A program made the translations under genes and the position numbers. The notes under the pieces were generated by a model. The model made no database searches and had not been told where the DNA came from. It saw only the letters and a list, made by a program, of their open reading frames with translations. Positions 23,732-23,774 of a stretch of DNA of 32,157 bases are shown in pieces. Position 1 is the stretch's first letter; every line of letters starts with the position of its first letter. This DNA is from a virus, in the IMG/VR virus record IMGVR_UViG_3300008113_000336, positions 1 to 32,157 of that record. One strand, written 5' to 3'.

Positions 23732-23774
23732 GGGGGCATGGCGGAATGGCAGACGCAGCGGACTTAAAATCCGT
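23732..23774 (+). other. attP: attP core: 5' part of a tRNA-Leu(UAA) gene
   Basis: 43 nt that read as tRNA-Leu from the GGGGGCA acceptor strand through the D arm (TGGCGGAATGGCAGACGC) and the anticodon stem-loop with anticodon TAA. The sequence then stops matching: no variable arm, T arm (GGTTC) or 3' acceptor follows. It is therefore not a tRNA gene but a match to one, as in P-SSP7, where a 42-nt tRNA-Leu match lies by the integrase. Since the core covers the 5' half, integration would place phage DNA upstream of a rebuilt host tRNA gene. A small stem, ACCCC-AGTC-GGGGT, lies just before it. Confidence 0.8.

Follow-up and report, generated by a model that had tools for sequence, protein, structure and literature searches.

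The window analysed here is the whole of virus record IMGVR_UViG_3300008113_000336, a stretch of 32,157 base pairs (bp) from an incomplete contig. Within it, a 43-nucleotide (nt) sequence, GGGGGCATGGCGGAATGGCAGACGCAGCGGACTTAAAATCCGT, at positions 23732–23774 of the plus strand, corresponds to the 5' half of a leucine transfer RNA (tRNA) gene, tRNA-Leu(UAA), and is very probably the core of the phage attachment site (attP) in a T7-like cyanophage (Autographiviridae) that carries an integrase and has freshwater Cyanobiaceae as its likely hosts. It lies downstream of the integrase gene (int) in a T7-like genome (RNA polymerase, gp2.5 and portal), with a KilA-N gene intervening. The features of the locus are as follows.

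21333–21863, plus strand: MarR-like transcriptional regulator, upstream of int (PHROG 9665, E 6e-25; weak Pfam MarR match)
21640–22818, plus strand: tyrosine integrase open reading frame (ORF), true start probably ~21817 (Pfam PF00589, E 4.5e-19; PHROG 1, E 4.1e-46)
22875–22886, 23786–23797 and 23850–23861: GCAGGGGTGG-type motif, of which an inverted pair flanks the RNA polymerase leader
22994–23623, plus strand: KilA-N protein, between int and the core (PF04383, E 7.1e-22)
23646–23697, no strand assigned: inverted repeat (arms of 24 nt, 83%), int side of the core
23700–23705, plus strand: TAGGTT, a -10-like hexamer before the core (score against host promoters no better than chance)
23732–23774, plus strand: very probable attP core, 5' half of tRNA-Leu(UAA) (sequence, Rfam, host-gene comparison, same position in 50/70 related loci)
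23787–23861, no strand assigned: inverted pair CACCCCTGCAG / CTGCAGGGGTGG, on the RNA polymerase side of the core
23869–26283, plus strand: gene for a T7-like single-subunit RNA polymerase, immediately after the core (PF00940, PF14700; PHROG 414)

The match to tRNA-Leu begins at the first acceptor base and reaches the last base of the anticodon stem; the anticodon TAA is at 23765–23767, inside an anticodon loop at 23763–23769. At such a length the likeness is far above chance. The Rfam tRNA model matches 23732–23792 with 29.2 bits (cut-off 29), and no complete tRNA was called by ARAGORN in the window, as is expected because the core is only half a gene. Across the relatives the conserved block is 23732–23769, which ends at the anticodon loop, and the following TCCGT (23770–23774) is variable. 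Rfam, the alignment with host genes and the relatives thus all agree with an earlier note on this DNA, which had taken these 43 nt for an attP core covering the 5' half of tRNA-Leu(UAA). The extent given there is right for the match itself, but the conserved block stops at 23769, and this placement suggests that the crossover probably lies in the anticodon loop (23763–23769) and not at the end of the stem.

Alignment of the integrase gave 71 viral loci, 70 of which were examined. A tRNA 5' half follows int in 50 of the 70, constant in position and direction; 37 of these halves are of the Leu(UAA) type and 13 of a CAU type, whose matching host genes are tRNA-Met according to ARAGORN. The RNA polymerase gene is on the same strand and starts 131–197 nt after the start of the core in all 45 testable loci, and the sequence beyond the 3' end of the core differs from one relative to the next and has no match to the host 3' half. 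Among isolates, the freshwater Synechococcus phage S-SRP02 is the closest; it has an identical gene order and a diverged half tRNA at the equivalent place. A regulator upstream of int is a gene order common to P-SSP7 and S-CBP3, and the order regulator, int, half tRNA-Leu and RNA polymerase is common to S-SRP02, P-SSP7, S-TIP37 and S-CBP3. The half in P-SSP7 is also tRNA-Leu(UAA); up to the end of the anticodon loop it matches Prochlorococcus genes exactly, and immediately beyond the loop it departs from them. Those of S-CBP3 and S-TIP37, as judged by eye, belong to other leucine isoacceptors. The KilA-N gene between int and attP is shared with S-SRP02 and is absent from a near-identical sister phage (L002), the one other viral contig in which the 43-mer is present.

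Thirty-three distinct phage Leu halves were compared with 112 host tRNA-Leu genes. Alleles unseen in hosts number 0/231 in the acceptor stem, 0/66 at positions 8–9, 0/165 in the 5' strand of the anticodon stem and 1/231 in the anticodon loop; the corresponding counts are 31/363 in the D-loop and 11/132 past the anticodon loop, and what look like three gaps in the D-stem arise from the alignment. At position 20, 111 of the 112 host genes have T and 23 of the 33 phage halves have C or G; at position 22, every host gene has G and 17 phage halves have T or A. Most of the change is therefore confined to the D-loop and to the part that the host would supply. Such a pattern suggests selection for a half able to rebuild a working tRNA, not for an exact copy.

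The Cyanobiaceae were located through the alpha-carboxysome protein family CsoS2, and an intron-less tRNA-Leu(UAA) gene was recognized, with a loose pattern, in 187 of 400 genomes. The common freshwater allele, of Cyanobium type, GGGGGCATGGCGGAAT[T/C]GGTAGACGCAGCGGACTTAAAATCCGC, and the phage half differ in three respects: a base missing from the D-loop, a substitution in the D-loop, and the last base. The closest host genes (L233–L236), from four species of one Cyanobiaceae genus, show 2 differences in 43, namely one D-loop base and the last base, and are without the same D-loop base as the phage half; this short D-loop occurs in the chromosomal gene of 4 of the 42 species of the nearest genus. 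The acceptor strand of the phage, GGGGGCA, can pair with TGCCCCC in these freshwater hosts but not with the marine alleles, so that freshwater Cyanobiaceae are the likely hosts. Acceptor stem and clade guide the choice of host better than exact identity does. A family centred on G010 (probably not picocyanobacteria) gave 0/333 in the host search. A group I intron in Cyanobiaceae tRNA-Leu was considered as the cause of the absent matches and rejected, as none of 26 genomes scored above the cut-off. In other cyanobacteria (L179–L183) an insert right after GGACTT, at the tRNA-Leu(UAA) anticodon loop, is consistent with a group I intron, and such an insert would interrupt the bacterial attachment site (attB) at that loop.

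Relatives of this phage are found joined to host DNA. In the genomes G666 (L292, G666:C71) and G534 (L293, G534:C123), the same integrase type and MarR gene are joined to tRNA-Thr, as is the integrase type in contig L307; a complete tRNA-Tyr is also present at the G666 junction and in L307. Host genes adjoin the junctions, for example an aroQ-like gene in G666, and these Cyanobiaceae loci are host–phage junctions of this integrase family. In a viral locus of the same family (L302), a complete tRNA-Thr(GGT) at 3973–4044 (minus strand) accompanies a 3' half of tRNA-Tyr, which is antisense to int and ends in the anticodon loop, the int match ending at 3831; this phage apparently preserves a two-tRNA host operon on integration. 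The 3'-half tRNA-Tyr core of L302 and of the two junctions is unlike the 5' half of the window. What these loci share is that the phage carries, and integration rebuilds, whichever half lies on the int side of the crossover; the direction of the tRNA decides whether this is the 5' or the 3' half.

A TAGGAT-like promoter element stands upstream of most of the Cyanobiaceae tRNA-Leu genes examined. In four species (G652, G765, G813 and G805) the gene is without this element, and the ~150 nt upstream resemble the phage attP flank, with scores of 79, 72, 71 and 63, respectively, compared with shuffle means of 35–39 and maxima of 50–55; all four exceed every one of the 200 shuffles made per species. 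The short D-loop is also present in G805, G813 and G652. Near the four tRNA genes, phage coding sequence shows no more than marginal similarity, and no intact prophages were found upstream of them. By these comparisons the four species look like integration scars in which the chromosome kept a phage-built tRNA. Upstream of the tRNA-Leu gene of another species with a non-standard flank (G712; L268 4465–6898), a tyrosine recombinase and a primase-like gene were found, and the region may be an integrated element. In a Prochlorococcus genome (G829; L267 2476–3182), ~700 bp before an intact tRNA-Leu gene, there is a decayed 5' half of tRNA-Leu with P-SSP7-like sequence after it.

From these observations we propose that strand exchange by the integrase would take place within the 7-bp anticodon loop, in the host's intron-less tRNA-Leu(UAA) gene. 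After integration, the int side would consist of phage flank, phage 5' half and host 3' half, a rebuilt tRNA that runs in the direction of int, and the other side of host promoter, host 5' half and the phage RNA polymerase gene. The phage half would be free to vary in the D-loop while keeping the bases important to tRNA function. The earlier note had reasoned that the phage must supply a promoter for the rebuilt tRNA. The logic is sound, but no host-like promoter was recognized in the phage flanks: TANNNT occurs in 5 of 46, compared with 7.9 in shuffles, and a host-promoter matrix gave a mean of -8.63, compared with -8.28 in shuffles, so that a promoter of this kind was rejected. No promoter or terminator was predicted at 23550–23960, and no terminator between the core and the RNA polymerase gene in the window. 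Transcription by read-through from the int operon seems more likely, given that int and the core have the same orientation. On a more tentative view, which we regard as possible but doubtful, integration would amount to a promoter swap: the host tRNA-Leu promoter would drive the phage RNA polymerase while the essential tRNA came to depend on phage sequence, and a phage-built tRNA might stay in the host after loss of the phage, as the four scar species suggest.

Several points weigh against this reading. The exact 43-mer has no match in the GTDB representatives or in the 400 Cyanobiaceae genomes, and none of the 33 halves equals any of the 112 host genes through the anticodon loop; the proposal of the earlier note to seek the host by exact matching is thus not supported. 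The true host may be missing from the sample, because the searches covered one genome per species. No integrated copy of this phage, and no attL or attR junction for it, was found. The 33 halves are related, and their counts are not independent. All 33 hybrids of a phage half with a host 3' half were called tRNA-Leu by ARAGORN, but 341 of 400 random controls with two substitutions and 314 of 400 with three also pass; because random substitutions mostly pass, this test is weak, and the positional pattern is the stronger evidence. The scar genomes appear to be assembled metagenome bins, and the non-standard flanks of five further species (G729, G791, G828, G831 and G712) fail the 150-nt test.

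The sequence could instead be an attP in which selection acts only on DNA bound by the integrase, the half being kept for recombination and not for tRNA function. The integrase must recognise DNA around the anticodon stem-loop, where bases 23–38 are near invariant, and we consider this account unlikely, though not negligible. It is less apt because integrase binding would not easily protect the acceptor strand, which together with bases 8–15 is unchanged at 20–35 nt from the crossover. No novel alleles occur in the 231 acceptor and 66 junction cells, whereas D-loop positions 20 and 22, which are nearer, have changed; moreover, L302 retains the whole extra tRNA-Thr gene beside its tRNA-Tyr half. 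It is very improbable that the half is a leftover of an earlier integration or of an inexact excision, now unused, with its tRNA likeness due only to recent acquisition. The absence of an exact host match and the failure of marine relatives to form stable lysogens (PMC8776855) would fit such a relic, but position and direction are constant across 50 related loci, and drift alone would not yield near-unchanged stems and tertiary-contact bases beside a diverged D-loop. The integrase ORF is, moreover, intact with its catalytic residues present, R160, K185, H243, R246, W269 and Y278 (295-amino-acid query numbering) being invariant in an alignment across 12 relatives. Two further alternatives, an ordinary 3'-half core whose strand was mistaken and a full-length but degenerate tRNA gene, to which the Rfam alignment over 23732–23792 might point, are excluded for practical purposes by the alignment with host genes. 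In addition, ARAGORN called no tRNA, and the sequence after 23774 does not match the host 3' half and is variable in relatives.

Around the attP core, the inverted repeat at 23646–23697 is a possible arm-type or protein-binding site. The GCAGGGGTGG-type motif occurs in 21 copies (two or fewer mismatches) in the window, compared with 8 expected, and its copies are possible arm-type or regulator sites. The first copy of the inverted pair, CACCCCTGCAG, is seen again at a similar location in most relatives.

The pattern of change in the half tRNA, together with the host scars, makes the biological role of T7-like cyanophage integration a testable question. The changes in the 33 halves point to selection for the ability to rebuild a functional single-copy tRNA, and the scars suggest that phage-rebuilt tRNA genes persist; if the half is indeed under selection, integration would matter to these 'lytic' phages. 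An exact attP match alone is unsafe for host assignment.

An attP matching the 5' half of tRNA-Leu is already documented in T7-like cyanophages, which the earlier note missed: in all four attP motifs the matched part is the first half of tRNA-Leu, int and attP are both needed for integration, and integration was shown but without stable lysogens being found (Shitrit et al. 2021, PMC8776855). P-SSP7, from the set of groups I–IV in that study, has the same isoacceptor and the same half as the window, in agreement with the similar 42-nt match that the note had mentioned. The marine set (P-SSP7, S-TIP37 and S-CBP3; PMC8776855) is reported to have perfect host matches, a property that integration need not require, whereas for the freshwater phage of the window no exact match was found in the genomes searched and the D-loop has drifted; its relatives, unlike the published tRNA-Leu set, also use tRNA-Met(CAU) and tRNA-Tyr. 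S-SRP02 (MW822601) has an integrase 53% identical to that of the window, a KilA-N gene and a core at the equivalent place, and its own half is likewise diverged; the attachment site is unmentioned in the passages on tRNA and integrase of its paper (PMC8790148). The kind of attP is thus known, and what is new is a freshwater member and the evidence on how the half evolves. Use of the 3' half is commoner in tRNA integration, as the earlier note had said: Islander lists 3760 islands with 3' and 159 with 5' tRNA gene fragments (PMC4383910). The pTN3-like integrases, which belong to archaeal elements, also have a tRNA gene 5' half as their attB, and the tRNA that they rebuild is reportedly expressed from the integrase promoter (PMC8371274). 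No complete tRNA of the disrupted isotype, the mark of tRNA-dependent lysogeny, was called by ARAGORN in the window, whose contig is incomplete. In the mycobacteriophages with that lifestyle the tRNA is not rebuilt and the phage supplies a complete tRNA gene (PMC10865867). What the two systems have in common is integration into a tRNA gene and a remedy, supplied by the phage, for the essential tRNA; in the window this would instead be the rebuilding of the half.
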